Source of the DNA: Gammaproteobacteria bacterium | Lineage (GTDB): Bacteria > Pseudomonadota > Gammaproteobacteria > Nitrosococcales > Methylophagaceae | DNA length: 64,000 bases | Assembly (NCBI GenBank): GCA_014859375.1 | Contig: JACUUH010000001.1 | Span: 62,001-126,000, forward strand | Direction of reading: 5' to 3' | In this document: positions 2,346-31,622 of the stretch, piece after piece | How positions within the stretch are numbered: position 1 is the stretch's first letter | Layout: each line of letters begins with the position of its first letter | Program-made: the position numbers and the translations under genes | Notes under the pieces: model-generated | What the model saw: the letters and a program-made list of their open reading frames with translations, nothing else | What the model was told of the DNA's origin: nothing | Databases searched by the model: none

Positions 2346-5252
2346 TTAAACTTCGTGTCTTACATAAACAACGTCTATGTCGTCTATTACTTTATACTTA
2401 CCATCAAGGTCTCTCATTAATCTCTTCCTAATAGAGCATCTATCAGTGTTATCAATAAGGGTAATGGCTGGTAAATTAAGTTTACCACCTAAACCTTCTA
2501 ACCCTATTGCTATTACATCTTCACCAGCACTGGCGGTTAATTTAGATATAATCTCATTAGTTGTTATTCTAGTTTTGGATAGTGTTTCTGAGATGATGCT
2601 AATGGCAAGTTTTCTCAACACTTCTCTTAAGTAACTATCGTTGTAACCTTCATTGTTTAAATAGTAGGTAACAACAAAAGACTGTTCTAAGTCCATGTAT
2701 CTAACTTCACCATCTAGAATACTAACTCTTCCAGATCCAGCGGTACGTTGAGGATAAAGATATAAGTCTGTCTGTTCAAGAGTCCATTTTCTAAAATCAG
2801 ATATGTCGTTATCCAACCATCCAATAATAGTTTCCGGCAGTTCTTTAAGATAGTTAACATCACTAATCTCGTCAACAAATCTATATCTAGCGTCTACTAA
2901 GAATAAATCGCTTTCACGTTTGAAAGTTCTTTCATCCAACATGATTAGGTTACCATCGGAATCTCTAATTGGGTCACCAACTCTATACTTTATAACGTGG
3001 TTACCCTCGGAGTCTAATACAGGATCACCTTTAGCATGTAATATGTTGTAAACTAGATTACCATTCACATCCTTACTTATTAAAACAGATCCAGTTACAG
3101 GATCTCTCTCGTACACATTAGACTCGTAGTATGCGTAGATATCTTCTTCATACCTACGATATTCTCTACCGCTTAGAATAGTTCTGTAGTTAGACCAGAA
3201 GCCTTCTAAGTGTTTACCTAAGGTTAAACCTATTCTCTCATGTGAGACACCTGATACGTTAGCACCTAGTAAGAACTCAGGACCTTGATAGATAAGACCT
3301 GTATCCGCCACACCTTCAACCGTGTAATCCTTAACATAGTAAACCAAGTTATACTTAGCGTTAAGATCCACTCTGTAACTTCTAGTCTCATTTGGATACA
3401 TGTTAAAGTTAGTTAAGAGAATATGATTGTTTTGAGTAATATCGAAGTCAGACTCTAAATAGAATTCAAATACTCTCTCATCACCTTTTCTACCTTTAAA
3501 CACACCATTTAAGAATACATCTCTTTTCTCAGCATAGGGTCTAAAGCTTAGTTGTGGTAAAATAGCTTCGTCATCCATTTCTTTAACCAAATCACCACTT
3601 CTAGTAATTACTTGTAGAACATAACCTGTATCAATTCTTTCAATGGATAAAGAAGAAGTGTTCACATACAAACCTAGGTTAGGATTCTCCTGTATGAATT
3701 CTTTCGAAGTAATGCTAGAATTATCTAGGTAATAGTTTCTGGTTTCGAAGTAATCACCGTTTGCATCATAAACTTGATGGAAGGGACTGTATAGATAACC
3801 AGAAGAGTTTACTCTATTAATGAGCTCATCCCCAGATAAACTTTCTAACTCATCCCTCTCTTCATTAGGTAATGGTTTAATAACACCATTATCACTTTTG
3901 TATAAAACATCAGATGTTAGAGTAAGTCTTGACCCGTTGTCTATAACACCCCTAACGTTAGAAAGGTTTTCATAAGTTTCTTGCAGAGGAGAGATAACGC
4001 AACCTGCGCCAGCTATGGTATTACCACTTCTAGGAGTAGGTAGTCTTCTAGTAGCTAAATAGATTCTATTAGTTACATTATCGACATCTTTAATAGCCGT
4101 GTATCCCATGTTACTTAAACGCGTAGATAACTGTACATCTGTTATTGGTAACTGTGAGTCACCTAGTGAGTTTGTAATAACTCTTTCTCTTAACTGTTCA
4201 AAAGTAAGAGCATTGCCTCCTCCGTTAACTACGTTATCGCTGAACACAGCCATGTCACTGAAAGTGGACAAAGGAGCTGAGTACTTACCTAATTCTTCAC
4301 CATTATCAATGTCTCTCCACGCTGCACCGAAAGAGTTAATCTCATAGTTCTCTAATAAAACATCTAGAGGTCCTTTGGTAGTATACATATCTACTCTAAT
4401 GTCACCAGATAGAAGACCATTAGTAACGTATATTTGAGGTACGGTTACCTTTAGTCTGTCATTCATGACTTTTAAAACTACGGTAGGTTCAGTTGGGTCG
4501 TATACCTGATCACTGTGTGTAGTTCTAATTTCTCTCCATTCGCCGTTAGTGCGTTTTCTATAAACACGGCAGTGATAATATTGATCCACTATAGGGAAGG
4601 ACTTGGAGTAGGACGTAGCCAGACTTAATTGAGCGTAGTAAGGGGTTACTTTAAATTGATTAACTGGAACTTCTACTCTCACGTATTCTTTATTCTCAAC
4701 TCTAACCATATACCACTCTACCATGTTACTTTCCATAACTTGTAAAGGAGATGGTTTGGTTACATCGTAGACTACCTGAATACCGCCGTGGTTCATAACT
4801 CTAAGTTCAATCGGATATTCAATAGTAAAAGCCATGTCAGCTACACCGAATTCAGTGTTTCTAGGTATTACTATTTTCCTAACACCTCGAACCTCACTAT
4901 CTACAGCTTTCTGAATGAGTTCTTCTTTATTAAACAGTAGAATAAACTTAGTTCTACTAGGTGAGGCAAATCTACTAATGTAATCTTTATCTGACATATG
5001 CAAATAAAGCTCTTCTTCATTCATTGCCATGGATGGGTAAATTTGTCTGGTTAAAGCTTCGGCGTTAGCCATTGCTGACGACCCAATCACAGCAGCAGTT
5101 TCCATCATGAATACAAATGGATTACTGGGATCTACTATATCCAACGATCCATTAGTAACTTCTTCTAGAGTTTGTAAACTTAATCTTTGAATAGCAGCAG
5201 GGTTATACCTAACCTCATTTACTTTATCCAATAAAACTTTAATATCAGACAT
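2346..5252 (-). CDS. Putative baseplate wedge protein (T4 gp6 / gpJ-like)
   Basis: 968 residues. The N-terminal ~120 residues (YNPAAIQRLSLQTLEEVTNG, then VDPSNPFVFMMETAAV and AEALTRQIYPSMA) have the style of gp6/gpJ-type baseplate wedge proteins, which assemble the ring around the tail hub. The remainder is beta-rich with many short repeats of D-x-D/N-G type (residues ~720-780). It shares one base with the stop of the upstream gene at 5252, so the pair is a two-gene minus-strand operon. The specific homology was recognised by pattern only and should be treated as provisional. Confidence 0.6.
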   Translation of the reverse strand: MSDIKVLLDKVNEVRYNPAAIQRLSLQTLEEVTNGSLDIVDPSNPFVFMMETAAVIGSSAMANAEALTRQIYPSMAMNEEELYLHMSDKDYISRFASPSRTKFILLFNKEELIQKAVDSEVRGVRKIVIPRNTEFGVADMAFTIEYPIELRVMNHGGIQVVYDVTKPSPLQVMESNMVEWYMVRVENKEYVRVEVPVNQFKVTPYYAQLSLATSYSKSFPIVDQYYHCRVYRKRTNGEWREIRTTHSDQVYDPTEPTVVLKVMNDRLKVTVPQIYVTNGLLSGDIRVDMYTTKGPLDVLLENYEINSFGAAWRDIDNGEELGKYSAPLSTFSDMAVFSDNVVNGGGNALTFEQLRERVITNSLGDSQLPITDVQLSTRLSNMGYTAIKDVDNVTNRIYLATRRLPTPRSGNTIAGAGCVISPLQETYENLSNVRGVIDNGSRLTLTSDVLYKSDNGVIKPLPNEERDELESLSGDELINRVNSSGYLYSPFHQVYDANGDYFETRNYYLDNSSITSKEFIQENPNLGLYVNTSSLSIERIDTGYVLQVITRSGDLVKEMDDEAILPQLSFRPYAEKRDVFLNGVFKGRKGDERVFEFYLESDFDITQNNHILLTNFNMYPNETRSYRVDLNAKYNLVYYVKDYTVEGVADTGLIYQGPEFLLGANVSGVSHERIGLTLGKHLEGFWSNYRTILSGREYRRYEEDIYAYYESNVYERDPVTGSVLISKDVNGNLVYNILHAKGDPVLDSEGNHVIKYRVGDPIRDSDGNLIMLDERTFKRESDLFLVDARYRFVDEISDVNYLKELPETIIGWLDNDISDFRKWTLEQTDLYLYPQRTAGSGRVSILDGEVRYMDLEQSFVVTYYLNNEGYNDSYLREVLRKLAISIISETLSKTRITTNEIISKLTASAGEDVIAIGLEGLGGKLNLPAITLIDNTDRCSIRKRLMRDLDGKYKVIDDIDVVYVRHEV

Positions 5253-6403
5253 TAGATTATACCTTTTTGTTTTAATTCGTTTATAGCCATTGTGTATTCA
5301 CTCTTGGTGGTCCACCACTCTAACTCCATGGTGTCAGGATTTATCCTAGGGTATAGAGAATAATTTAGTAGATTCATTAATGTTCTACCGATAGCGCCAT
5401 ATTTTGGATTGACACTGAAATTACCGTCGTCTCCATAACTTTCCGTATCACTTATCTGAACCATTAGATGATTTCTATTGTTACTTTTGTCAGACATAGA
5501 CGGAAACTTGTTAACGACAGTCTGGTTGAACTCTTTAACTAATATAGGGTCTAAGTAATTGACGCCCATACATCTAAACGGGATTGAGATCTGATCATTA
5601 TCCTGGTTATAGTTAGTTTCATTACTATAGTTAAATGAAGCCCCCAATGGAGCCGCCAATGGAAAGGCTGCACCACACGCAGCTATCTTCTGCACGTACT
5701 TATATGTCTCGTCCATTACGAGTCTATATATCCTAGTGTTGTAGTCTATTTCATTTTCTAAAATCAGATCTGGGTAAGGTACCATGGTGCCATCATAAAC
5801 CATTGACTGATAGGTAACCCACACCGCAAAAAGTAATGTTATAGGATCACCTTGTATATTTCTAAAATTAGCTGTGATATCAAAAGTGTTAAAAATATGC
5901 GTTGTACCGTCTACCATACTGTAGGATTCTTTATAAACTCCTTCTTTAGATGTGTAGGTGTCAGCCACTATATCCGGCCACCCGCTTATATTAATTAAGT
6001 TGTTGGTCAACACAGGTAGAAATGCCTGTCTATAATTAAAGATCTCTGATTTTATAGACTGTTGCCCTTGCCTTTCCCCTCTGGGGTCAAGCATACATCT
6101 AAGGGCTCTTGCCATGCTTTTAGTATCATCCGTTAATAATGGTGTTAACATTCTGTTCATTGCTAAATTGTCATAAGACATATTTAGATCTGGACGAGTG
6201 AAAAAAGTATATCCATAAGAGTCTTGATTTTTAGGAGCAGGTGTCCCGCTAAGATTTAAGTTAATTCCTCTTAAGTTATCGGATTGTGCAGAAGATAAAC
6301 TCCCAACCCCGTTTAACTTAGATGCGAAGTCAACGTCTTTTTTTCTTGCACTGGGTAAAGAACTTCTTTGTTTATTTTTTAGTCGTTCTAATTCATTACT
6401 CAT
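5252..6403 (-). CDS. Putative virion structural protein
   Basis: About 383 residues. I prefer ATG at 6403 because GGTGAT precedes it at good spacing; an in-frame ATG at 6415 would add MVIT. The N-terminus is basic and disordered (KNKQRSSLPSARKK), and the rest is a mixed fold with an internal hydrophobic segment (AAFPLAAPLGASF). It is first in the minus-strand pair with the baseplate wedge candidate and is probably its partner. No family recognised. Its start is only 36 bp from the divergent plus-strand start at 6440, so its promoter must lie largely inside that gene. Confidence 0.65.
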   Translation of the reverse strand: MSNELERLKNKQRSSLPSARKKDVDFASKLNGVGSLSSAQSDNLRGINLNLSGTPAPKNQDSYGYTFFTRPDLNMSYDNLAMNRMLTPLLTDDTKSMARALRCMLDPRGERQGQQSIKSEIFNYRQAFLPVLTNNLINISGWPDIVADTYTSKEGVYKESYSMVDGTTHIFNTFDITANFRNIQGDPITLLFAVWVTYQSMVYDGTMVPYPDLILENEIDYNTRIYRLVMDETYKYVQKIAACGAAFPLAAPLGASFNYSNETNYNQDNDQISIPFRCMGVNYLDPILVKEFNQTVVNKFPSMSDKSNNRNHLMVQISDTESYGDDGNFSVNPKYGAIGRTLMNLLNYSLYPRINPDTMELEWWTTKSEYTMAINELKQKGII

Positions 6404-6439
6404 TGTTATCACCATCGCTTAAAAGGATTGAAAAATAAA

Positions 6440-7534
6440 ATGTCAAAAGAAATCGCTAAAGATATCGGTTTAGCTTTTGTTGCTAAATTACCCGATCTTA
6501 TCAGGGATCATGATACTGACTCATTAATTGAGTTTACTAAACCCACCCGAGTGGAACCTATCGTCTTGTTAGATGATAAGGTAGTGAACTTATCGTACAC
6601 CCCAGACATCCTTCAGTCTTTAACTAACATTTTTGCAGGATATTATCTGCAGGCTGTGGCACTGTCTGTGAATGTAGGTAATGTTAACGTTATTGGGTTA
6701 CTCGATAGATTAAACCCAAATAGAGACTTTAACAGAAATGCCGCTGGTTCAGTAATTAATTCAAGTCTAAGAACAGCATTCGAATCAGCCGAGGCTTATG
6801 AACACGGCTTGCCTGTACCTGGTCAACCTATTGGCCTTGAGCACTTCGGTATTGAATCTGACCGTATTTCATCTTCTAAAGACTCTATTAAATTAGCTAT
6901 GGATGTCAATAATTTATCCACAGGTAAATTGTTGGAAGTGGAAATTGAAAGCGAAGGTAAAAAAGCCACCTTCCCTATAGCTTTAAGAGTTATACCTACC
7001 TCTGCTCCATCTGATGGCATTGTTCATCTATTGTCTTTAGGACGTAAAGATAAGTCCGTGAAAGAAAGATGGCATGCTTGGAGATCTGGGCAGATAGAAT
7101 TTATCAGAGATTTTGTCTTTGCTCAAGACTTAATTGACGATCATAAAAAGGGTCTAATTAAAGATACTACAGGTTTGTTTGAAGATTCATTAAAACGTAG
7201 AAGTAAGAATTTCTTATCTACTGTTTTATCAGGTAATGTTTCTGTAGCCACAGCCTCTAACATCATTGTGATCACTGAGTCTACTAAGAAGGCCATTGAA
7301 AGAAACATTGGTGGTAGAATCAAAGATTTTAAAACTAGAGAAGCTATCTTTAAAACCACTTACACTATGTTGTTAGTTGTTGTTGACCCTGAATGGGAGG
7401 CGGTAACTATTTACCACAGAAGTATAGAAACACCTACTGAAGTTTCAGCGTCAGATATGAAAAATCCTAAAAAGGGAAATGACATTACTGATATTTTGAA
7501 AGCTTACCAGTTAGGTAATAGTCCAAGTCTATAA
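6440..7534 (+). CDS. Putative virion structural protein
   Basis: 364 residues from ATG 6440, with AAGGA at 6423-6427 as RBS; a TTG at 6428 overlaps that RBS and is unlikely. A mixed alpha/beta protein. A long basic helical region (~residues 205-300) includes GRKDKSVKERWHAWRSGQ and ends before a beta-strand segment TYTMLLVVVDPEWEAVTIYH. First gene of a plus-strand structural operon (to 9034). Function not recognised. Confidence 0.65.
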   Translation: MSKEIAKDIGLAFVAKLPDLIRDHDTDSLIEFTKPTRVEPIVLLDDKVVNLSYTPDILQSLTNIFAGYYLQAVALSVNVGNVNVIGLLDRLNPNRDFNRNAAGSVINSSLRTAFESAEAYEHGLPVPGQPIGLEHFGIESDRISSSKDSIKLAMDVNNLSTGKLLEVEIESEGKKATFPIALRVIPTSAPSDGIVHLLSLGRKDKSVKERWHAWRSGQIEFIRDFVFAQDLIDDHKKGLIKDTTGLFEDSLKRRSKNFLSTVLSGNVSVATASNIIVITESTKKAIERNIGGRIKDFKTREAIFKTTYTMLLVVVDPEWEAVTIYHRSIETPTEVSASDMKNPKKGNDITDILKAYQLGNSPSL

Positions 7535-7544
7535 GGGGTATAAG

Positions 7545-8444
7545 ATGTCAGGAATTGGAAATTTTGTAAAATCACTTGTACCTAGTTTGGAGAAATCAAG
7601 GATTGAGGAGGACTTAAGAGTTATTAAGGAAGATATTCTTAATAATACATTACCTCCTTATGAAGCCGCAGTAGACCATTTCACTAGAGATAAATTTATT
7701 TCTAGAGAAGTTAAAGAGTTTGATAAAACCTTTGGTCGTCATGCTAAGTTAAACGTTGCTGGTTATAAGAACTATTTAGAAGCTATCCAGAAGTCTTTGC
7801 TTGTCGCTGCTGAAACAGTACAGGCGTTAGACGATGATTTGGATAAGTACTTCTCTAAAGACAACGCTTCGGCTTCTACCACTTACGCTAAAGCTAATAT
7901 CTTAAAGTTAATCGCAGTAATTGACTTTGCTAACAGATATAGCAGAAGACTGTTAATGTGGACTTACCATAATGAGCAGTTAGCAAGCGGTGTTAACTTG
8001 AATGATCCTTTCTCTAAAGCTGAAAACGAGTACATGATTGCTAATAGAAATAATTATTTCTTTGCACTAAAAGTAATCTCTACAAAAACTAAAGACGTGG
8101 TTAATCTAATTAAAGCTATACCAAACGTCATTGTAGTGCCAGAAGAAGTGGAAGTAGTTAAAAGTACTTTAGGTAATAAAATCGATCCATTGTCGGTAGG
8201 TATTTTACCTGAGAAGATCAACTTTATTTACGGTATCAGAAAGGTATTTGCTGAATGGCAGGTTTCTCGATATAAAGCTTCGGTTGAAGAGAAAAGAGCT
8301 CTGGAGTATAGACTCTTGGCACTAAAAGAAGCTAGGGAAGATGGCGTCGTAGATGCTAAGTTAGAACAAGAAATCGAATATAGCGAAAATAGACTTAGAA
8401 AGTTGTTACACAAAATCGCTAAGTTTGAGGAGGAGTTAGAATGA
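7545..8444 (+). CDS. Hypothetical helical protein of the structural operon
   Basis: 299 residues, almost wholly alpha-helical. Its C-terminal ~70 residues are strongly charged heptad-like sequence (EEKRALEYRLLALKEAREDG onward), suggesting a coiled coil. It follows the preceding gene by 10 bp and overlaps the next by ATGA (8441-8444), so translation is probably coupled. No family recognised. Confidence 0.65.
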   Translation: MSGIGNFVKSLVPSLEKSRIEEDLRVIKEDILNNTLPPYEAAVDHFTRDKFISREVKEFDKTFGRHAKLNVAGYKNYLEAIQKSLLVAAETVQALDDDLDKYFSKDNASASTTYAKANILKLIAVIDFANRYSRRLLMWTYHNEQLASGVNLNDPFSKAENEYMIANRNNYFFALKVISTKTKDVVNLIKAIPNVIVVPEEVEVVKSTLGNKIDPLSVGILPEKINFIYGIRKVFAEWQVSRYKASVEEKRALEYRLLALKEAREDGVVDAKLEQEIEYSENRLRKLLHKIAKFEEELE

Positions 8445-9034
8445 ACCCCACCGCTGCTCATACGGTTAACCGCGAAGATTCTCTGTGGTACACACCCAAT
8501 GGTTTTTATATTAAAGACCCTAAGAAATTCGAAGACGGTGTCATTAAGGAATATTTAAGACAAGCCTCTGAGAGTGAAAGGTTTAGGAATAGCTGGGAAT
8601 TCAAAAAGTTTGCCATCGCTTACGTTAAAGAAATCCTAACTGTCGATTCGATGGGTCTTATTACAACATGGGTTCGATCTAACGCTAGGGCGGACACACC
8701 GCTTACAGGTAAACGTTTAGACTTCTTAATCGACACCATGTCTTTTGTAAACACCGGTAAAAGAAAAATATCAATTATTAATTGGAATGATCTAATACCT
8801 AACCTATATGACTACGATGTTAATATACAAAAATCTAAGTCATTGTATGGCGATGTAAAACATTTAGAGGAAATAACTCCTCGATGCAGTGTATCTGAAT
8901 TTATCACTAGATGGTGTTCTCACCCTGATGGATTCAATGATATGGTTCAATTCATTAGAATTACGACTCCTTACGACGAGCCAAAGCCGGAAAAGAGATC
9001 AAGTTCTACTGGGTTGAATATTAAACTTGTTTAA
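8441..9034 (+). CDS. Hypothetical protein of the structural operon
   Basis: 197 residues. The start ATG overlaps the upstream TGA and is preceded by GAGGAGGAG within the upstream gene. The C-terminus ends in a polar basic tail (KPEKRSSSTGLNIKLV). Last gene of the block that precedes the inner-head paralogs. Function not recognised. Confidence 0.65.
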   Translation: MNPTAAHTVNREDSLWYTPNGFYIKDPKKFEDGVIKEYLRQASESERFRNSWEFKKFAIAYVKEILTVDSMGLITTWVRSNARADTPLTGKRLDFLIDTMSFVNTGKRKISIINWNDLIPNLYDYDVNIQKSKSLYGDVKHLEEITPRCSVSEFITRWCSHPDGFNDMVQFIRITTPYDEPKPEKRSSSTGLNIKLV

Positions 9035-9087
9035 TTAAAATTTTGAGAAATCAAATAACTAACGTTAGTTATAGGAGTAATAAAAAT

Positions 9088-10374
9088 ATGGCACGTGCTT
9101 TATTAAAACAATATTTGGTAGCTTCATTAGAATCAGATGAACCGAATCCTGAAGAAGTAGAAGAAGTAGAAGAAGAATCTGGTGTTGAGTCTCTAGAATA
9201 CGCAACTCTTGAAGTTGAAGAAGCTGGTGAAGAAGTAGAAGAAGTTATGCAAGACATCGAAGATCTTGAAGAAGTAGAAGAAGGTTTGGAAGCTATTGTT
9301 GCTGACCTAGAAGCTTCACTTGAACAAGGTGGCCTTGATCCAGTTGCGGCAGTATTCGCCACACACGCTATCTCAGCATACACTGCTCGTTTAGGCGTAG
9401 AATCAGCCGACTTGATTCCTTCAGTTGAATCTTTCGGTGGTGACACTACCCGCACAGTTTCTACTGAATCTGCTATGGATAAGGTAAAAGATACCATCAA
9501 GAAAATTTGGGCTACCATTAAAGCAGCTATGGAAAAAGCGGCAAAAGCTATTGCAGATTTCTTTGCTAAGATTTTCGGTGGCGTTAAGAAATTGGAAGCT
9601 CGTTCTAAAGCTTTGAAAGCTAAGATTGCTGAAGTTAAGAAAGCTGGCGGTAAAGCTGGCGACATTAAAGTTCCTAATGCCGCTACACTAGCCGTTGGTG
9701 ACAAAGTAGACGTTAAGTCAATCACAGACGGTTTAACTGCACTTAATGATACAGTTAAAGCTGTGGCTGGTGGATATACTGACGAAGTAACTAAAGCTAC
9801 TGAAAGCATGCCTGGTCTAGTAGCTGCTTGGATGGGTGCATCTGAAGAAGAAGCTCCTGCTAAGAAAGAAGCTGTGGATAAAGCCTATGATAGTGCACTT
9901 GCTTCTTTAGAGAAAGTATCTGGTGAAGTTGTATCCGGTAATAAGACCATTGCTGTTAAAGAAGGTAAAGTTTCTTTAGAAGCTGCGGAAGGTAAAGGTT
10001 TCACTGGTGATGCTTCAATGACTGCATTGAGTACAGCTGAAATGGAATCAGTATTGAAAGCTGTTGACGAACTAGTTGATTACATGGGCAAGCGTAAAGC
10101 TGCTATTGATAAACTATCTAAAGCTCGTCAAGAAGTTATCAAGAAACTTGATGCTGAATTCAAGAAAGAACCTAAGCACCCAGGTAAAGATGTTAATGCT
10201 GTTATGAAAGGTGCTCAGAAAGAAGTGTCTGCCATTACTTCTTCTGTTGCCGGTCACGCTTTCTCTGTAGCTCGCTCTGCTTTGGCGTTGGTAGAAGTTT
10301 CTGCTAACTCTTACAAAGCTGAAGACGATAAGAAAGAAGGTGAAGAAAAGCCAGCTGAAGGCGATGACAAATAA
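9088..10374 (+). CDS. Inner-head-type protein paralog 1 with acidic propeptide
   Basis: 428 residues from ATG 9088, ten bases after AGGAG; the frame is open further upstream but lacks an RBS there. The N-terminus (ALLKQY) resembles the LLxKY segment of its paralogs. Residues ~18-80 are extremely acidic (long E/V/D runs), like a scaffold propeptide. S-V-E at ~112-114 and S-T-E at ~125-127 sit just before an amphipathic helix (~129-165) containing IKKIWATIK and FFAKIF. The C-terminal half is helical and lysine-rich. In phiKZ-type phages head proteins are cut after S-x-E, so residues 1-127 may be removed. Codon choice (GCT, GAA, AAA, GTT) is more uniform than in neighbours, suggesting high expression. 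Confidence 0.7.
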   Translation: MARALLKQYLVASLESDEPNPEEVEEVEEESGVESLEYATLEVEEAGEEVEEVMQDIEDLEEVEEGLEAIVADLEASLEQGGLDPVAAVFATHAISAYTARLGVESADLIPSVESFGGDTTRTVSTESAMDKVKDTIKKIWATIKAAMEKAAKAIADFFAKIFGGVKKLEARSKALKAKIAEVKKAGGKAGDIKVPNAATLAVGDKVDVKSITDGLTALNDTVKAVAGGYTDEVTKATESMPGLVAAWMGASEEEAPAKKEAVDKAYDSALASLEKVSGEVVSGNKTIAVKEGKVSLEAAEGKGFTGDASMTALSTAEMESVLKAVDELVDYMGKRKAAIDKLSKARQEVIKKLDAEFKKEPKHPGKDVNAVMKGAQKEVSAITSSVAGHAFSVARSALALVEVSANSYKAEDDKKEGEEKPAEGDDK

Positions 10375-10408
10375 TTAATTTTGTCTAACCTTAGTTTTCG
10401 ATGAAGTA

Positions 10409-10442
10409 GAAAGTAACGGGTTAATTCCCGTTACTTTCTTTC
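10409..10442 (+). terminator. Rho-independent terminator (TTAATT loop)
   Basis: 12-bp perfect stem GAAAGTAACGGG / CCCGTTACTTTC with loop TTAATT, followed by TT-rich sequence. It lies directly after inner-head paralog 1 and so separates it from the next three. Confidence 0.85.
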
Positions 10443-10540
10443 TATACCCGTTTTATTAAGAACCAACAACGGCTACCTTTAAAAGGCTTTTAAAGATTTC
10501 ACCCTTATACTGTGAACGATTAACCCAATAGGGCATAACT

Positions 10541-11773
10541 ATGTTAGGAAAATACAATGTAAACAAAGGTCTGACTTCGAAAGAATTCGATCTTTTAACC
10601 TTTAATTCAGAATTAAATTCTTCATTTAAAAAAGTACAGTCAAACGATGCAGTAGCGTTAAAGTTATCTCATTCTTTTGAAAATTTATCTGATGTAATAG
10701 AATCTTTAGATAGTTTGGCGACTGACTCTATCGCGCTATCAGACCAAGCCATGGCTTTTTTAAAGCATTCAGTGCAAGAGGACTTGAAGGGCACTGTTTC
10801 GGTGGAATCTATCTTACCCAAGGATATCAATAGTCTATTAACCTTAAATGTTTCTATTGAGAATCTAAAAGATGCTTTGCAGAAAATGTGGGTGGCTATT
10901 AGAGAAGCAGTAAAGAAAACCTTAGAATCTCTTTCTAACTTCTTTTCTAAGATATTCGATAATTTAGATTCCATTATTAAGAAATTAGAGAATATGAAAG
11001 AAACCTCTAAGAAGATTAAATCGGATAATTTAGAGATAAAGAATAGATCAGGCTTAGCGGTTAAATCTCCAGACTCAGTTAAGTTCTCTGGTAAGGTAAG
11101 TTATGACAGCATGTCTAAAGGTTTAAAGGCATTAAAGTTTATAGTCACTGAAACGTATGTTGATTATACTAAGGTTTTAGAATCCGATTTAAAAAATCAA
11201 ATAAACCTTATTAAAAAGATGGATAAAGTTTCTTCTGAAGAAGAATTTAAGCCAATATTGGAAACAATGGAATCTTCCTCTAGAGACGTACTGAGAGTTA
11301 TTAAGACTTCATTAGAGGGTAAGTTCATCATAGGTGACAAAGTCTTTAAGAATGACGTTAAACACTCCTCTAACCATATGTTTAACCTGATTTTAAGTGA
11401 TACAGGTAGCTCTAACGGTTTTAGAGGTGAAGTTGAAATAGACCCACTTACTCCAGACCAGATGTCAGTTCTATTATCTTTAGCTATAAGTTCCTTAGAA
11501 ACTATAAAAAATAATAGAAAAACTATAGACTCTATTAGAGCCTATATGAGCGAATCTATTAGATTAGGTGAACTTCTAGCTAAATCTTCCAGTGATGATA
11601 AAAGCATTGTTAGAAATAGAACTGTACTTAGAAAATTACAACAGGATAATCTAAGACCAGTTACTCAATTGACTACTCATTTTTTTAATACTATCAGATC
11701 TTTAGTAACGATAGTAGAGGAGTCAACAAGACTTTATATCCCAGAGGAGGGAACTAACTATGTCTATGTTTGA
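10541..11773 (+). CDS. Inner-head-type protein paralog 2
   Basis: 410 residues beginning MLGKYNVNKG. S-V-E at ~87-89 and S-I-E at ~105-107 precede the family's amphipathic helix (LQKMWVAIREAVKK ... FFSKIF, ~108-145). A K/E-rich region follows, and the C-terminus has a TPDQMSVLL...RLGELL pattern aligning with the other copies. It overlaps the next paralog by 14 bp. Likely packaged into the head and trimmed by a prohead protease; that role is inferred from layout. Confidence 0.65.
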   Translation: MLGKYNVNKGLTSKEFDLLTFNSELNSSFKKVQSNDAVALKLSHSFENLSDVIESLDSLATDSIALSDQAMAFLKHSVQEDLKGTVSVESILPKDINSLLTLNVSIENLKDALQKMWVAIREAVKKTLESLSNFFSKIFDNLDSIIKKLENMKETSKKIKSDNLEIKNRSGLAVKSPDSVKFSGKVSYDSMSKGLKALKFIVTETYVDYTKVLESDLKNQINLIKKMDKVSSEEEFKPILETMESSSRDVLRVIKTSLEGKFIIGDKVFKNDVKHSSNHMFNLILSDTGSSNGFRGEVEIDPLTPDQMSVLLSLAISSLETIKNNRKTIDSIRAYMSESIRLGELLAKSSSDDKSIVRNRTVLRKLQQDNLRPVTQLTTHFFNTIRSLVTIVEESTRLYIPEEGTNYVYV

Positions 11774-12986
11774 TAAGTATGCGCAAACGCCCTCAGTAGC
11801 TCCCACAGAGACGCTTGAACTCTTAAGTGATGAAGTCACCGGAGGTCTCACTAAGGATTACCTGGAGATTAATGCTATCTCCAAGGATTTAGATAAAATG
11901 TTAACGTCTTCTTACAACTTAGGTATGTTAGAAGACAAGTTTGATAGTATAGCTAACGAGTCTATGTTGTCTGACAGAACATTGTTTTATGCAACGCAGT
12001 CCGTTAACTGTGAATTAAAAAGTTTAGGTTTGGAAGCGATTCCTGGTGTGGACTCTATAGTAGGTGCTAAGAATAAAACTAAAGACATCCTGGCTTCTAT
12101 TTTTAAAGCTATTAAAGATGCTATCCTAAAGATACTTAACAGTATTAAAGAATTCTTCGGTAAACTTTTTGGTTTGTTAAGACCTTATAAAGAAAGAGTT
12201 GATAAATTACAGAAAGAAGTCCAAGAGAAGTCTAAAGGTAAATATAAGTTACAAAATGACTCACCTATCAAATTACCTTCTACTGTTATATCTAAAGATA
12301 CAAAGTCAATTTACGATATCAGTAGAGTAATGCAAGAGTTGGTGTCTTCAGGTCAGGGTATTAGAACTACCATGCTTTCTATCTCATCTAAGAGAATAAA
12401 GAACCTCACTTCTTTTTTAATAAATCTTAAACAGGATAAGTTAAAACCTAAGGACTTAATTGCTGGCTTTAAAACTACACTAGATTCCCAGTATAAGAAT
12501 TTAGAACCGTTGGTTAGTAAATACAAAGATAGTTTAGGGTATAAAACTTTTGTTGAGAATACATTCAAATATAAGTTAGGAGATGATCTTAACTATGAAG
12601 AAAAATGGATTTCTTTTGGTGAATCAGAGTCTAACCCTAAGAGCGACCATGATGTAGAGGTTGATCTAACAAGACTTAAACTTTCAGTTTTAACTGACAT
12701 GCTACAAAGTTCAAGTAAGATACTGGAAGGTTTTGAATCAAGTAAATCTTTAGTTGAGAAGTATTACTCGGATAGAGAGAAATCTATTAAAGATGCTGAG
12801 CGCGTTATTGTAGTTAACGATAACACTGTGGATACACAAAGAGTCAATACCTCCATTAGAGCTATCCTTAGGATACTCCAAAGAGAGTCCTTGAAGCCGG
12901 TGGTTGATTTTGATAAATACTCTTTAGACTATGTCAGATTCACTATATCTATGACTGAGAAAATATTAAAGAGGTATCAAGCGTGA
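11760..12986 (+). CDS. Inner-head-type protein paralog 3
   Basis: 408 residues beginning MSMFDKYAQT. The RBS GAGGAGGG lies inside the end of the upstream gene. A G-L-E site (~90-92) precedes the shared helix (ILASIFKAIKDAILKIL ... FFGKLF, ~107-140). The C-terminal segment with ILRILQRESLKPV aligns with LRKLQQDNLRPV of paralog 2, which is good evidence for common descent. It overlaps the next start by four bases. Confidence 0.65.
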   Translation: MSMFDKYAQTPSVAPTETLELLSDEVTGGLTKDYLEINAISKDLDKMLTSSYNLGMLEDKFDSIANESMLSDRTLFYATQSVNCELKSLGLEAIPGVDSIVGAKNKTKDILASIFKAIKDAILKILNSIKEFFGKLFGLLRPYKERVDKLQKEVQEKSKGKYKLQNDSPIKLPSTVISKDTKSIYDISRVMQELVSSGQGIRTTMLSISSKRIKNLTSFLINLKQDKLKPKDLIAGFKTTLDSQYKNLEPLVSKYKDSLGYKTFVENTFKYKLGDDLNYEEKWISFGESESNPKSDHDVEVDLTRLKLSVLTDMLQSSSKILEGFESSKSLVEKYYSDREKSIKDAERVIVVNDNTVDTQRVNTSIRAILRILQRESLKPVVDFDKYSLDYVRFTISMTEKILKRYQA

Positions 12987-14281
12987 GTACCAAGGACGTA
13001 TTAAGTAAATACAATGTTGAAGACTATTCTGACATTAGTAATGAAGGTTTGTTAGAATCGGCTTATGAAACATCAGAAGCTATTCATTCAATAAACTCCG
13101 CACTGAATGACATAGATGCAGCTATGGATCTTACTGATTCTGTGTTATCAATTGAGTCTATGTTAGCTATGCATGATTTATCTGACAGAGAAATTGAACT
13201 TGTTAACGGTAATTTAAAAACATTGCTATTGGCACACGCCGGTGAAATAGAAAACTTAGGTCTAGAGTCAGGTGGTGTGGCTGTTGCACAAAAAGTTATC
13301 TTAGCCGTTCTTAAAGGAACCTATGAATTAATAAAAGAAATGTTAGTTCAACTATTTCAAGCATTAAAGAAATTCATCCAGCGTATGAGATACAATCTCA
13401 AGGGCGTTAGAAAGTCTAATAATGATATGTTGGAGACGATGCGTGAAAATAGTAAAAAAGGTTTAAAGGTTACTAAAGTTGACATTGAGGGCACGGCGAA
13501 CTCTTTAAGCATTGATTATAAAACTCCACAAAACGGTGAAGAGATTTATAAGGGTTTACAGACACTCTCAAGATACGCCAATGCTTACTTTAAGTTATTT
13601 GATAAAGATGTAATATCTTCTTCATCTAAACTTATCTCTGCTGTTGAAAGGTTTGACATTGCCAATCCAGAACTGTCTCTAAAGGCCGTGCTGGACATTG
13701 CTGATACAATAAACCCTAATACAGCTGCTGATCTTGTTAAAAGTACAGTAGATAAAAATGTTAAAATGTTAGGTGGTGGGTTATATAAAAAATCTTTACC
13801 TTTAATGGGTAACAGATCTATAATGTATTTTGAACCTTACATTGAACCGTCTGAGGTAGATCTCATTGCGGTCTCTAGAATTAAGAGAACGAGATGGGCT
13901 AATCTTAAAGCTACTAGAGATAACCCTCCTAAGGGATCTAGTTCAACAGAGATAGATGTTATTACGGTATCGCAAGCTGCGGAGATTCACAGACTTGTAA
14001 GAGACCTTACTCACATGGTTGAAGACCATTTGGATAACCGAGATAAGATTTTAAAATTAGAAAGAAGCATTAACCGTGCCCTTGATAAAATGAAATCTAG
14101 ATCTGAATCTTCCTCGGATATATCAGAGAAAGGTAAGCGGCACTATCAAGAAGTTATGAGATATTCTCAACGTTACATTTTCTGGGCACAAAACCCACAG
14201 ATGGAACTTGTTAAACTCATACTCTCTTCTTGTAGATCAGCAATTGTTGCTTGCAATAAGTCAGCTGCAGTTTACGGTTAA
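12983..14281 (+). CDS. Inner-head-type protein paralog 4
   Basis: 432 residues with a GTG start overlapping the upstream TGA. The N-terminus MSTKDVLSKYNVEDY carries the shared LxKY segment. S-I-E at ~56-58 and G-L-E at ~93-95 are followed by a helical segment (ELIKEMLVQLFQALKKF, ~100-138). It is the most divergent of the four, but has the same propeptide-helix-lysine-rich-helical order. Last of the block before a strong terminator. Confidence 0.65.
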   Translation: MSTKDVLSKYNVEDYSDISNEGLLESAYETSEAIHSINSALNDIDAAMDLTDSVLSIESMLAMHDLSDREIELVNGNLKTLLLAHAGEIENLGLESGGVAVAQKVILAVLKGTYELIKEMLVQLFQALKKFIQRMRYNLKGVRKSNNDMLETMRENSKKGLKVTKVDIEGTANSLSIDYKTPQNGEEIYKGLQTLSRYANAYFKLFDKDVISSSSKLISAVERFDIANPELSLKAVLDIADTINPNTAADLVKSTVDKNVKMLGGGLYKKSLPLMGNRSIMYFEPYIEPSEVDLIAVSRIKRTRWANLKATRDNPPKGSSSTEIDVITVSQAAEIHRLVRDLTHMVEDHLDNRDKILKLERSINRALDKMKSRSESSSDISEKGKRHYQEVMRYSQRYIFWAQNPQMELVKLILSSCRSAIVACNKSAAVYG

Positions 14282-14691: not shown

Positions 14692-16398
14692 ATGCCTATT
14701 GTAGCATTAGAAGTACCGGAAACTTATGAAAGTATCGTCAGGCCGGTTACAGTAAGTATCGTTAGGGATTTGATTGATACAATGAATCTACCCAACGATA
14801 CAAGAGTAGAGTACACAGGCAGTGCTGAGACAATAGCTCAACAAGGATCTACACTGGCATCTAATACTTCAACTCCTCTTTTCCCTTTTAGCGGTAAAGT
14901 AAAAGTTGAACTAGTAGAAAACTATCTCGAAGAAGGCATATTAACAACTTCTATAAAGCGTAGAGATAACTTACCTATATTCGCCGATCACAAATTAGGC
15001 GTGTATATGAAACCAATCTACACAAAGGTGCAGTCTAATATAACCTTTAGTTATAGAGCACCATCAAAACATCAGGCTGATAGATGGAGAGATGGACTTA
15101 GAAGAAAGTCTACTCAAGCCATACAGCTTTTATTGCACGAGTTGATATATCATTTTTCACCCCCAGATGTTTTTCATGCTATACTTAGAGGTATATGGGA
15201 AAACAGAGAGTCTATTGCTGGCTACGGCGAAGAGTTCGAACAGTGGTTATCTAAGTGTTATAGTGATAGAATGACAGTACTTGCTAATTTAAGCGGTGAA
15301 AAAGGTTTAGTTAGTATTGCCGAGAAGCAAATAGGTGTGCAAGGTTGGTTTGATTGGATGGCGCAACCAGATGTACCTTCTAAAGAAAGTGAGGCAGGTA
15401 CATTTGAAGTAAGTTTCACTTATACGTTTGAGTATGACAAAGTCACCGCAATGTCACTCGAGTACCCTATAGTGGTACATAACCAGTTCTTGGAAGATAG
15501 ATATTTACCGCTAGAGAAGCCTTATGATCCTTATGATCAACCAAGAAGACCTAGTTACACTGGTTCCCTTAATGATGCTTTCTCTGTTATTAATTACAAC
15601 AAAGAACAAAAGTATAGGGGCATAGTTTTCCCAGAGTTCGATGATTGGATTCCAGAGTTTGAACATAAGAAAACCATACCTATATTTACAGGTATAGTGG
15701 CGGTTGATTTATCTGACCCTTATCAAATAGTTGATCTAACAAATTTGGGAGATTACAACTTTTCAGATAAGTTACTTTCTTTTATAGCTAGCAATAAAGT
15801 GACTATACTTAATTACCTGGCATCTACTTTCCTATTAACTTTTTATGTAAATGGTAAACCGCAAAATCCCGTTGACATACACATTGATGAAGAATTAAAT
15901 TTAAGAAGTAGCGTAGCCTTAGACCCTCGGAATGTACATAGGTTTAGATTGTCTATGATGAGTGACCTACTCACACTTTCTAAGAAGGCTAAGGATAAGA
16001 TGAGAGAAGATCCGGAAATGACTACGTCAATAATTGACGCGATAGATCAATTCCAAAAAATATCTTCAGCTACTCTATTTAACTCTACTTCAGTGGCAAT
16101 GTCCCAGACGGTTAACACTGATCTAACGGTAAGTCTACCAAACCCTAGAAGAACTTTTAATAGCGATCCAACTGATACAGTGGAACCTACAATGCCTAGA
16201 AATAAAGTAGAGTCAGATTTGTCAGACAAACTGTCAGATCAATTAAAGGTCTTAGGTGGTAAGTTAATAACTGAAGATTCTTTAAACAAAGTTATTAGTA
16301 AATTAAGACCTATTACAGATCTTTCTAAGGTTGGTAAAGGTAGAGGTCTTAAGACAGTGATGACTGCCGGAATTATAGTTCACAAACAAGGTGGATAA
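14692..16398 (+). CDS. Putative virion structural protein
   Basis: 568 residues; ATG follows TGGAGG at good spacing. Mixed alpha/beta with several aromatic-rich segments and a polar C-terminal region (~residues 470-568) rich in S, T, D and K ending KGRGLKTVMTAGIIVHKQGG. Followed after 4 bp by the next structural gene. No family recognised; position suggests tail or baseplate. Confidence 0.65.
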   Translation: MPIVALEVPETYESIVRPVTVSIVRDLIDTMNLPNDTRVEYTGSAETIAQQGSTLASNTSTPLFPFSGKVKVELVENYLEEGILTTSIKRRDNLPIFADHKLGVYMKPIYTKVQSNITFSYRAPSKHQADRWRDGLRRKSTQAIQLLLHELIYHFSPPDVFHAILRGIWENRESIAGYGEEFEQWLSKCYSDRMTVLANLSGEKGLVSIAEKQIGVQGWFDWMAQPDVPSKESEAGTFEVSFTYTFEYDKVTAMSLEYPIVVHNQFLEDRYLPLEKPYDPYDQPRRPSYTGSLNDAFSVINYNKEQKYRGIVFPEFDDWIPEFEHKKTIPIFTGIVAVDLSDPYQIVDLTNLGDYNFSDKLLSFIASNKVTILNYLASTFLLTFYVNGKPQNPVDIHIDEELNLRSSVALDPRNVHRFRLSMMSDLLTLSKKAKDKMREDPEMTTSIIDAIDQFQKISSATLFNSTSVAMSQTVNTDLTVSLPNPRRTFNSDPTDTVEPTMPRNKVESDLSDKLSDQLKVLGGKLITEDSLNKVISKLRPITDLSKVGKGRGLKTVMTAGIIVHKQGG

Positions 16399-16402
16399 AT
16401 AA

Positions 16403-17785
16403 ATGAGTTTAATGAAAAGAAGACCCTCGTCTGATTTAACAGCGACGAGCGTTCAAAAGCAACAAGAAGCTGTGGTAGAACAACCAGGGTATGAAAGTAA
16501 CGTGGTGGATACCAGGTATACTTCAGCAAGAAATCTCTTAACTCATATAGCTGGTTCTTCTTGGATAGTGAATTACTATCAGCAGATAGTGGGTCCCAAT
16601 AACGAACTTAGCTCACAGCAAATGGGTAAGAGCGCAGTATACCAGCAGTATACCTCTATTAAGGATTTAGAACTTAAGGTAACTAGTTCTTTGTCTATGT
16701 CTCAGAATCAAGAGACAAAAGAGTTTGAGGTTACGGGGGAGGCTACATGCTACCCACCAATGATTCCCAATAAAGGTGATATGTTTATTGCTGACATTGG
16801 AGACGGTACGGAAGGACTATTTACTGTAACTGAAACTACTCGCATGAGTATTAAAAAAGATTCAGTTTACAACATTAGTTACATTAGTGTCGATGTAGCC
16901 ACTGCTGAAAGAAAGAGAGATTTAGAATCTAAAGTAGTTAAGGAAACCCACTTTGTTAAACGTTTGTTGGAACATGGTGAAGACCCAATAATTGTAACAG
17001 ATGAATACAATAGTTATTTATCTCTTAGTCAATATAGTGAAAGTTTAATAGGTAATTTCTTTGCTGATTTTTATAACAAAAGTATAAGTTCTTTATCTGT
17101 ACCTAATCAGAAGCTAATAACATTTGATCCATTTGTAGCTAGAACAATTAAAGCGTTTATGTCTACGACAGAACATCCTCTAGTCTCTAAGATTAAACTA
17201 TATTCGATTGAGTTACCTGGCACTAATCCACCTACTACTTTTTGGGATGCTATTCTAAGAATGTCCCCTGAACTGTTACCTATGGCGTCAGAGAAGTTAG
17301 GTTTGGTTGACGCTAGATATTTTGGTGTAATGCCACATTTCGAATCTGTTAGTTATAGTAATGTGAGAGACGTGGTATATCCGGTTGAGAGAAACGATAT
17401 GAAGTTAGATCATATTGACTTCGGTCCTTCTGCACATAACTTCAGAGATATCCGACATCAATTCGAAACTACTCAACTAGGATCTTTAGCGCAGTTAAAG
17501 ACAGCTAGAGACTCTGCACCGCAAAACGGTATTGAAAGTCTAGAACCTGTATACCCTGTGACAAAAGATGATTACTATGTTTTCTCTGAATCTTTTTATT
17601 TAAGTCAAGAATCTAAACAGAGTCAACTAGAGAAGTTAACTAGAGATGTTTTAAATGGTAAATCCATAGATAAAAAGGTCTTGAGTAAACTCTGTGAGTC
17701 TTCTTTTAGATGGGGTTCCTTAGAAAGATTTTATTATACACCTATTTTACTTATTCTAATTAAGATGGTTAGAAGAGGCATGTAG
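16403..17785 (+). CDS. Putative virion structural protein
   Basis: 460 residues; RBS GGTGG in the end of the upstream gene. A polar N-terminal arm (residues 1-40) precedes a beta-rich region with EVTGEATCYPPMIP and GDMFIADIGDGTEGLFTVTE (~110-150), resembling small barrel modules of tail/hub proteins. Helical C-terminus. Cotranscribed with 14692 and the genes to 20152. Function not recognised. Confidence 0.65.
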   Translation: MSLMKRRPSSDLTATSVQKQQEAVVEQPGYESNVVDTRYTSARNLLTHIAGSSWIVNYYQQIVGPNNELSSQQMGKSAVYQQYTSIKDLELKVTSSLSMSQNQETKEFEVTGEATCYPPMIPNKGDMFIADIGDGTEGLFTVTETTRMSIKKDSVYNISYISVDVATAERKRDLESKVVKETHFVKRLLEHGEDPIIVTDEYNSYLSLSQYSESLIGNFFADFYNKSISSLSVPNQKLITFDPFVARTIKAFMSTTEHPLVSKIKLYSIELPGTNPPTTFWDAILRMSPELLPMASEKLGLVDARYFGVMPHFESVSYSNVRDVVYPVERNDMKLDHIDFGPSAHNFRDIRHQFETTQLGSLAQLKTARDSAPQNGIESLEPVYPVTKDDYYVFSESFYLSQESKQSQLEKLTRDVLNGKSIDKKVLSKLCESSFRWGSLERFYYTPILLILIKMVRRGM

Positions 17786-17796
17786 TAGAAAGGATT

Positions 17797-18378
17797 ATGA
17801 CAGTGAACAAGAAGAACCATAGTACCGCACATATACTTTTTAAGTATTACTATAAAGTTTATATTCCCCAGGCTCACCTGTATAGCAAGGAATATATTAC
17901 TACTTTCGGTATCCCTACCTCTGGGGATAGAGAAGTGGATAGGAATCTAGCTAATGCTAAAACACTTACTCAAATGACTATAGTGGAAATGGCCGAGTAC
18001 CTAGATGAGGGTGCTAACCTAACATTGGAAGAACCTGAGAAATCTGTGGAAATTTATAAGGTTGTTAAAGATCATCTTTCTAATTGGCAAAGACTTATTA
18101 ACAACCCTTACGAAGAAGTTGAAGTACCGGTTGAGGATCTGCGTAAGTTGGATGCTCTAGCCGCAGAAGTATTTAAGATAGCTAGAATATACATGAAGGA
18201 GGAGCCAACTGGATCTAAATTGTTCGATAACCTTAATGCGTTGACTAGCCGCCGATTTCTCAAAAGGGTTGCAGATACTCCTGAGGAACGAGCTATTAAG
18301 AATGTTAATAGTGAGTATAAGCCTGTGGCTGATACTATCGCTAAGACAGCCTTCGAAAGGAGAAGACAATGGCGATAG
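17797..18378 (+). CDS. Hypothetical helical protein in tail/baseplate operon
   Basis: 193 residues, helical, with a basic C-terminus (AFERRRQWR). GAAAGGATT serves as RBS. It overlaps the next gene by 10 bp. Two long overlapping frames in this region are out-of-phase shadows and were discarded. No family recognised. Confidence 0.65.
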   Translation: MTVNKKNHSTAHILFKYYYKVYIPQAHLYSKEYITTFGIPTSGDREVDRNLANAKTLTQMTIVEMAEYLDEGANLTLEEPEKSVEIYKVVKDHLSNWQRLINNPYEEVEVPVEDLRKLDALAAEVFKIARIYMKEEPTGSKLFDNLNALTSRRFLKRVADTPEERAIKNVNSEYKPVADTIAKTAFERRRQWR

Positions 18379-19712
18379 AGAATACACCTATACAACTAGA
18401 GATACAAGCAATATTCTTAGATGGTCCAAAGCCAGTAAACAACGTATGGTCATGCAGAATCATAACGGATACCGGAATATTTAAGCCAGTAAAGTTCTTG
18501 TCGATGGATATAGATAGAACCTACGATATTAACTTCACAGATTACATAAACCTTGAGTTAAGTATCTCTAAGGGTGTATTCACGCATCACCTAATACCCA
18601 ACAAAGACCATTTGATAGTAGAGGTTAAAAGAACCCCTATTAAAGAAACAGTGGATGACGACGAAGTAGTCGATGAAATCTTCGTAAGAAGGTATAAGGC
18701 TATTTTGAAGGATGAAACTGATGAAACAATGGCCAGTAAAAGTAAAACCTCTCAAGATGCTGAAGCTTCAGATTTATCTGGTCCAATAACTGTATCAATG
18801 CAACTGTTGGATATAGCTGCAGAGCAAGTTAGGTTTTATGAATTGGGCGGTATATATAAACATGTGGTACCGGGTGATGTGATTAAGTATTGCTTAACAG
18901 ACGTTAGCTCTAGATTAGATTTAGCTGTAGAAGATTCGGTTATGGGTGTTGACATGGTAGAACCTGACAACACAACCCCTAATAGGCAAGTGGTAATACC
19001 GCATGGCATTAGACCGCAAGATTTACCTGCATTTATTCAACATAACTGGGGTGGAGTATACAACTCAGACGTAGGTTGTTATTTGCAAGATGGTCTTTGG
19101 TACGTATGGCCCTTATTTAACACGCAAAGATTTGATCTTGAAGTTAGAACGATGCTTATCTATAACTTACCTGAGGATAAATATCCCGGAGTAGAAAGAT
19201 CATATCGGTTGAATGGTACACAGGCAATAGTGCTATCCACCGGACAATCTACGCAGAAAGATTTCTCATCTCATCAGAGAATGAATGAAGGTAACGGTGT
19301 GCGCTTTACTCACGCCAGTAGAGTTATGGATGGGTTTGGTGAAGTTATTGATAACACTTTTAAAGTTACTAGATCTTTGAATAATAGCGAGTTTAGTTTT
19401 CCTAACGGTGACGGCTATAGCTATGCACCTATAAGTCCTAAGCGAATAACAGATAATGTTTTTGCTGAAGCTTCTAGACTAGCTAAGAGAAAAGGGTCTT
19501 TTCTTAATTTGGTTTGGGAAAATTCTAGACCGGAGATTGTTTACCCTGGGATGCCTGTTAAATTACTTTACCTTAAAGATGATAAGGTACAAGAAGTGTT
19601 GGGCGTTGTTTACAAAGCACAACATTTAATCCAAGACAATAAACCAGGACCTATAGGCGGTAAACAAGTCACCAATAGCTCACTAGTATTGTTTATAGAG
19701 AAAGCGGAGTAA
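18369..19712 (+). CDS. Putative baseplate hub / tail protein
   Basis: 447 residues, beta-rich. The C-terminal portion has ISPKRITDNVFAEASRLAKR and then PGMPVKLLYLKDDKVQEVLG, a pattern I associate with gpD/gp27-like hub domains where a late strand-loop-strand segment carries PGMPV. It starts inside the previous gene (AAAGGAGAAGACA RBS) and is followed at 3 bp by the exonuclease gene. The hub assignment is a low-certainty inference. Confidence 0.5.
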   Translation: MAIENTPIQLEIQAIFLDGPKPVNNVWSCRIITDTGIFKPVKFLSMDIDRTYDINFTDYINLELSISKGVFTHHLIPNKDHLIVEVKRTPIKETVDDDEVVDEIFVRRYKAILKDETDETMASKSKTSQDAEASDLSGPITVSMQLLDIAAEQVRFYELGGIYKHVVPGDVIKYCLTDVSSRLDLAVEDSVMGVDMVEPDNTTPNRQVVIPHGIRPQDLPAFIQHNWGGVYNSDVGCYLQDGLWYVWPLFNTQRFDLEVRTMLIYNLPEDKYPGVERSYRLNGTQAIVLSTGQSTQKDFSSHQRMNEGNGVRFTHASRVMDGFGEVIDNTFKVTRSLNNSEFSFPNGDGYSYAPISPKRITDNVFAEASRLAKRKGSFLNLVWENSRPEIVYPGMPVKLLYLKDDKVQEVLGVVYKAQHLIQDNKPGPIGGKQVTNSSLVLFIEKAE

Positions 19713-31328: not shown

Positions 31329-31450
31329 GCCCGAAATAAAATTCGGGCACCTTATTACACAATGAGTTTATAGCTTATTGTAAACCTAATCTGATGATGA
31401 GTGAGCGAAAGGTATTGCGGACGGCGGTTCGAGTCCGCCCTACTCCACCA
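31329..31450 (+). ncRNA. tmRNA acceptor piece (T arm, acceptor 3' strand, encoded CCA)
   Basis: T arm GGCGG-TTCGAGT-CCGCC at 31423-31439, preceded by GGAC as in E. coli tmRNA. Acceptor strand CTACTCC at 31440-31446, discriminator A 31447 and genomically encoded CCA 31448-31450. Two hairpins upstream, GCCCGAA/TTCGGGC (31329-31348) and ACAATGAG/CTTATTGT (31359-31381), probably belong to this piece. The exact 5' end is not determinable. Confidence 0.88.
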
Positions 31451-31622
31451 AATAGTAACTGCAACAATTAATAGATGGTTTATCTCCTATTCATTAAGAA
31501 AGTTGACTTGATGAAAGTCGTGTTGATAAACTGAAGTCGTCATTAACTTGGCGGTTGAACTTATTTATTGTGTTGTAGCGGAAAACGTCTCCGCGCATAT
31601 ACAACTGCAGTTACTATCTGAT
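31451..31622 (+). ncRNA. tmRNA intervening transcribed segment (removed on maturation)
   Basis: 172 nt. Its ends are a perfect 12-nt inverted repeat, ATAGTAACTGCA at 31452-31463 and TGCAGTTACTAT at 31606-31617, which would extend the acceptor stem and hold the two pieces together for processing. Inside, GTTGTA-GCGGA / TCCGC-...-TACAAC forms a further hairpin (about 31572-31604). Confidence 0.8.

Follow-up and report, generated by a model that had tools for sequence, protein, structure and literature searches.

The window analysed here, a stretch of 64,000 nucleotides (positions 62001–126000 of contig C4, JACUUH010000001.1, 209,130 bp, part of a 2.35-Mb assembly), contains four tandem open reading frames (ORFs), IP1–IP4. 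The locus very probably holds the inner-body genes of a phiKZ-type jumbo phage, with tandem PF12699 paralogues in the gp92–gp97 slot that would follow a scheme of targeting, cleavage and packaging. Coordinates prefixed C4: refer to the whole contig and all others to the window. The four genes are listed below with their motifs, numbered at the final glutamate; A and B are conserved alignment columns described further on.

9088–10374 (+): IP1, PF12699 paralogue, 428 aa, 141.7 bits; leader LLKQYLVASLE-15; LGVE-105, PSVE-114 (A), VSTE-127 (B)
10541–11773 (+): IP2, PF12699 paralogue, 410 aa, 72.7 bits; leader MLGKY, SKE-15; VSVE-89 (A), VSIE-107 (B)
11760–12986 (+): IP3, PF12699 paralogue, 408 aa, 56.2 bits; leader MFDKY, SDE-25; GLE-92 upstream of A
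12983–14281 (+): IP4, PF12699 paralogue, 432 aa, 69.3 bits; leader VLSKY, SNE-21; GLE-95

A probable inner-body gene block of the phiKZ type

An earlier note, made from the sequence alone, had described four tandem paralogues on one strand at these coordinates, and this proved correct. IP1–IP3 match one another by BLASTP at 1e-16 to 2e-9 (against a database of just 11 sequences), and profile comparison brings in IP4, with IP3 the most diverged of the four. AGGAG precedes the IP1 ATG at 9088, not the upstream TTG at 9043. All four proteins exceed the curated cut-off of 27 bits for PF12699 ('phiKZ-like phage internal head proteins', phiKZ_IP), and they are the sole matches to this family in the assembly at E 1e-3. 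A profile of 205 relatives, none from this phage, identified two extra paralogues at C4:50290–51318 (E 2e-8) and C4:51999–53192 (E 1e-11), which means that the phage encodes at least six inner-body paralogues. Earlier profile comparisons had given weak support for these two as family members, and the larger profile then placed both inside the family.

The earlier note took the four genes for a new cluster, which is not supported. PF12699 is found above cut-off in all 14 named phiKZ-type phages searched and in 12 of 12 IMG/VR phage records, and the phiKZ slot already holds members of the family: the phiKZ record contains eight places above cut-off, including all six of gp92–gp97. IP1–IP4 are members of this known family, and their reading as inner-body-type proteins that have a leader and would lose a propeptide is well supported by PF12699, by gene order, by the presence of a gp175-type protease gene and by sites that match those of SPN3US gp53 and gp54; cleavage and packaging would follow from these sequence features. 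Paralog family A, to which gp53 and gp54 belong, has two to seven members with long propeptides and is linked to ejection (PMC5694885).

The order of the phiKZ genes is kept around IP1–IP4 (tblastn with 33 phiKZ proteins against C4), with gp87–gp91 before and gp98–gp101 after, so that the four genes occupy the slot that holds gp92–gp97 in phiKZ:

2346–5252 (−): phiKZ gp87 homologue, left flank (tblastn, 37% identity)
5252–6415 (−): phiKZ gp88 homologue, left flank (tblastn, 37% identity)
6428–7534 (+): phiKZ gp89 homologue, left flank (tblastn)
7545–8444 (+): phiKZ gp90 homologue, left flank (tblastn)
8441–9034 (+): phiKZ gp91 homologue, left flank (tblastn; PF25618 PhiKZ_gp91, 73.1 bits)
14692–16398 (+): phiKZ gp98 homologue, right flank (tblastn)
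16403–17785 (+): phiKZ gp99 homologue, right flank (tblastn)
17797–18378 (+): phiKZ gp100 homologue, right flank (tblastn)
18369–19712 (+): phiKZ gp101 homologue, right flank (tblastn)

Elsewhere on C4, tblastn found homologues of the major capsid protein, the portal, subunits of the virion RNA polymerase and the gp175 protease. By its gene content, the 209-kb contig is a deeply diverged phiKZ-type jumbo phage, and IP1–IP4 extend the known family to it. In BLAST searches IP1–IP4 had no phiKZ match, being too diverged, and matched only 2, 0, 8 and 7 phage records, respectively. Single-protein scans of IMG/VR with IP1, IP4 and the gp98 and gp89 homologues gave no relatives. The gp89 homologue matched its own contig alone among 95 related genomes, and a PF12699 search of 57 genomes of the same family matched G000 alone. 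The assembly therefore does not establish the host, and C4 may simply have been binned together with it.

Like IP1–IP4, phiKZ gp92–gp97, gp162 and gp163 are members of PF12699, with gp92–gp97 in the slot between gp91 and gp98, and in gp93, gp94, gp95, gp97 and gp162 the leader ends in S-x-E, as it does here. The slot contains four genes in this phage and six in phiKZ, and the leader here is LLxKY.

Cleavage sites, charge and predicted structure

To place candidate cleavage sites within the family, we kept 80 of the 103 IMG/VR loci around gp87 homologues, 77 of which contained a total of 227 family ORFs. Those with E < 1e-10 and a start before base 9000 of the locus were combined with the members from named phages and IP1–IP4, giving 228 sequences, of which 209 were aligned once copies with identical ends had been removed. 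Over all residues of these members [SAG]-x-E has a frequency of 2.7% (2,562 of 96,088), whereas its share rises to 86% in column A (177 of 207 letters) and to 79% in column B (166 of 209). Weaker peaks lie in the leader (112/168) and in the middle of the propeptide (122/209), and these four are the only columns, among the 376 filled in at least 150 members, in which the motif reaches 50%. With one protein per name-prefix group, it is present at A in 77 of 87 and at B in 84 of 87. The glutamates of A and B rank second and third in conservation among all residues aligned, even though sampled members share only 11–34% identity with IP1, which provides a rule for predicting mature termini.

In SPN3US, cleavage was mapped by mass spectrometry to gp53 E125, gp54 E137 and gp54 E124, and gp53 is additionally cut at ARE-12, within its leader (PMC10052503 Table 2). 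In our alignment gp53 E125 and gp54 E137 fall in column B, and gp54 E124 falls in column A. IP1 has both sites, with STE-127 offset from B by four columns, and so does IP2. The site-B column holds a lysine in IP4 and N in IP3, and site A of IP3 reads GVD.

The earlier note had named one site per protein (S-T-E-127, S-I-E-107, G-L-E-92 and G-L-E-95), all at the same point before an amphipathic helix. The four motifs are found at those residues, and the shared layout survives in part: the sites in IP1 and IP2 correspond to B, but those in IP3 and IP4 are not homologous to it. GLE-92 of IP3 aligns with LGVE-105 of IP1, the placement of GLE-95 of IP4 was inconsistent between alignments, and we rejected the equivalence of the four sites for these two proteins, both of which are without the site-B glutamate. 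For IP1 and IP2, then, the note's choice is analogous to a site established by experiment; for IP3 and IP4 it is some other site. The spacing was not constant, with 31, 27 and 40 residues between the glutamate and FF in IP1–IP3 and no FF motif in IP4. The helix motif, given as FFxKIF for the first three proteins, is better written FFxK[IL]F: IP1 and IP2 have FFAKIF and FFSKIF, and IP3 differs at one residue (FFGKLF). As [SAG]-x-E is common by itself, with 20 matches in IP1 (read from 9043), 8 in IP2, 4 in IP3 and 9 in IP4, a single named site per protein is weak evidence.

A candidate enzyme is encoded at C4:207235–208014, where we found a gene for a gp175-type prohead protease. The H, S and D columns, which we take to be the catalytic residues, are conserved among the three proteases compared. 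For SPN3US, the corresponding protease gp245 has been assayed in recombinant form against gp53. S-x-E is also found in the N-terminal parts of the capsid protein (PSME-145) and portal (WSLE-208, ASME-217) of this phage, and close to the C-terminus of the protease itself (PSLE).

If IP1–IP4 are split at the sites named in the earlier note, the calculated isoelectric point is 4.05–4.76 for the propeptides and 8.62–9.56 for the mature parts. In 202 of the 209 family members the net charge of the propeptide lies below that of the mature part. In 149 the sign changes from negative to positive, as it does in 8 of 50 other ORFs of this phage (300–600 aa, split at residue 105).

An AlphaFold2 model of IP1, built from 102 sequences from the window and IMG/VR (mean predicted local distance difference test score, pLDDT, 87.6; predicted template modelling score, pTM, 0.83), is mostly helical and agrees with the helical character proposed earlier. 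It predicts propeptide helices at 36–79 and 85–102, followed by a stretch holding E105 and E114 and then by a long helix at 119–186. A Foldseek search with this model found no known fold in the PDB at E 0.001. Among viral models there were 112 matches at E 0.001 or better, and, of the top 50 listed, those with names are head or virion proteins or are uncharacterised, and most come from known jumbo phages. With VIA-align, the model aligned with chain G of the phiKZ capsid structure 8y6v (Z 11.2, 236 residues, 4.1 Å). A sequence search identified chain G as gp86, which lies below the PF12699 cut-off (18.7 bits), and chain K as gp93, which is a member of PF12699. VIA-align matches to alpha-pore-forming toxins and flagellins (Z 7.0 or less) were given no weight, as long helices reach such scores by shape.

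Processing of IP1–IP4 and its alternatives

Family membership, gene order, conserved sites, the presence of the protease gene and the charge difference were computed here; from them we infer targeting, cleavage, packaging and injection. The short N-terminal leader and the acidic propeptide would draw each proprotein into the prohead, where the gp175-type protease would cut after S/A/G-x-E at several points. Once the propeptide is lost, the mature protein, more basic, mostly helical and ~31–38 kDa in size (calculated with the earlier note's sites), would stay alongside the DNA inside the head and would probably be injected. In IP3 and IP4 the mature N-terminus has diverged, and any cut would lie further upstream.

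Several observations count against this scheme. E127 sits within the start of the predicted helix 119–186 of IP1 and not in an open linker, and the net charge of mature IP1 is only +3. The change from net negative to net positive occurs in only 149 of the 209 members. IP3 is one of only seven members of the 209 in which neither A nor B was found within tolerance. Loss of both sites in IP3, together with the frequency of S/A/G-x-E in glutamate-rich sequences, would fit packaged capsid or scaffold proteins that are uncut at A and B or lose just the short leader, the motif being incidental. The processing of ejection proteins also differs among giant phages (PMC5694885 and PMC10052503). We nevertheless consider this explanation improbable, as the enrichment and conservation of A and B far exceed the background rate of the motif, and both columns coincide with the mapped SPN3US sites.

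In a less drastic alternative, IP1 and IP2 would be cut at B, but IP3 and IP4 would keep most of the propeptide and serve another purpose, such as that of a retained component of the shell or core. The missing site-B glutamate in both proteins and the divergence of IP3 point in this direction, but both retain the leader, an S-x-E after it, an acidic N-terminal and a basic C-terminal part and an upstream G-L-E, and we regard a separate role as rather unlikely.

The processing scheme for IP1–IP4 has parallels in other phages. SPN3US gp53 and gp54, the ejection proteins of paralog family A, belong to the same family and share a leader and a long propeptide, with sites in the A and B columns where IP1 and IP2 have S-x-E. 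They differ in that SPN3US has A-x-E specificity and two members and this phage mainly S-x-E and six members. The first 15 residues of gp53 and gp54 are identical and have been likened to T4 targeting sequences (PMC5694885). The internal proteins and Alt of T4 likewise lose an N-terminal peptide to a related protease and are packaged and ejected, according to the same paper. The analogy is one of function: T4 propeptides have 10–20 residues, unlike the long propeptides here, and we claim no homology.

A start motif that recurs on non-family proteins

The L-x-[KQ]-Y tag that the earlier note described for all four proteins is found in three, and IP3 has F-D-K-Y. We sharpened the tag to [LIVMF][LF]x[KQ]Y after the hits had been seen and compared its occurrence at the starts of 239 non-overlapping C4 ORFs with the number expected from its frequency inside proteins. 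It starts 11 ORFs (0.35 expected). Six of these are the inner-body paralogues, and the other five fall outside the family profile:

37270–38400 (+): leader protein, no family known; GTG start; LLAKY; ASQE-33 then GFIDNLFKMFRR
38413–39129 (+): leader protein, no family found; LLDKY; GIE-20, SSE-27
39154–39987 (+): ClpP-like protease with leader; ILDKY; SQE-19, SME-28; PF00574 46 bits, cut-off 20.2
C4:51679–51969: gp49/66-family protein (PF13876) with leader, from the leader motif test
C4:135445–136041: leader protein, orthologue annotated CthTTM-like, from the leader motif test

Among the 233 ORFs outside the family, the sharpened motif was found in 5 (0.34 expected, P 3e-5) and L-x-[KQ]-Y in 6 (1.25 expected, P 0.002). 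One carrier of the latter, 57011–57403, with no S/A/G-x-E among its first 35 residues, is probably a chance match. Scrambled or altered motifs gave 0–3 matches in C4, apart from L[KQ]xY with 7, some at the same starts. In most carriers S/A/G-x-E follows soon after the tag. The carriers form three runs and an isolated gene, an arrangement that would suit cargo operons. Where it can be traced, family homology begins past the leader, at residue 23 in the PF13876 protein and at residue 13 in the C4:135445 protein relative to its PHROG. In phiKZ, gp97 and gp153, both recorded as structural, share NIHKY ahead of S-L-E; gp153 had no PF12699 match in our search of the phiKZ record.

This suggests that the shared start is a head-targeting signal, which would give a list of candidate cargo. 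We advance tentatively, and at somewhat less than an even chance, the more specific proposal that L-L-x-K-Y is a portable capsid address, coupled to a protease cut, on unrelated proteins, so that at least five cargo proteins beyond the family would be delivered with the DNA. Alternatively, the shared start may reflect chance and common descent or may serve a different process, for instance entry into the phage nucleus or membrane contact; we place the probability of this just short of even. Most carriers outside the family are without a known virion role, and two further points weigh against a targeting signal: the hits themselves guided the sharpening of the motif, and there is no general excess in other phages. 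In a cruder test of N-terminal similarity, the number of non-family ORFs above the 99th null percentile was 1 for this contig (1.3 expected), 6 for phiKZ (1.7), 0 for G095 (1.3), 1 for G099 (2.0), 0 for G100 (2.0) and 4 for G103 (2.7), i.e., no excess in C4, G095, G099 or G100 and little in G103. As this test misses the leader even in C4, the leader claim rests on the motif test. In favour of head targeting are the six inner-body paralogues among the 11 carriers, the S/A/G-x-E that follows the tag and the start shared by the two phiKZ structural proteins.

Profile comparison revealed nothing to indicate a hidden inner-body identity of the 37270, 38413 or C4:135445 proteins, and a phage search at E 1 with the 37270–38400 protein gave no match. 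In FLC9, FLC8, LucasX, DT01 and Goslar, the orthologues of the C4:135445 protein start differently, each stretch with an S/A/G-x-E (weak alone, as the motif is common), so that leaders may reveal injected proteins directly from jumbo-phage genomes. Further orthologues are found in FLC6 and SURPRISE13. A profile of six orthologues had no significant match among solved structures and no Pfam family exceeded its cut-off, so that the CthTTM-like label rests on the annotation of one record, that of DT01. In the literature, which our search covered in part, we met with no description of phiKZ-type phages in which non-family proteins share the leader, and we do not claim that none exists. As the earlier note framed them, IP1–IP4 are known in kind, and the leader on non-family proteins may be the less expected observation. 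If it is a targeting signal, the proteins that jumbo phages deliver into the cell, now listed by virion mass spectrometry, could be listed from sequence.

The gp90 homologue (7545–8444, +) starts MSGIGNFVKSLVPSLEKS, which resembles the SPN3US gp53 start MANFVKSKLARESVE, and may bear a leader of its own. The ClpP-like protein at 39154–39987 accompanies the gp175-type protease; its closest phage matches are Campylobacter phage ClpP or head maturation proteases, and PF00574 was found in 0 of the 14 named phiKZ-type phages. The ORF at 34289–36670 (+) encodes an SF2 helicase (ResIII/Helicase_C) fused to an HNH endonuclease, with S-x-E (VSVES, PSMEA) between the domains. At C4:146001–148400 there are ~20 repeats like residues 49–130 of phiKZ gp145, in a long repetitive tail or fibre gene. 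The window also contains a permuted transfer-messenger RNA gene at 31393–31815 (+), with 83.4 bits for Rfam RF04321 (gathering score 47), and ARAGORN agrees.

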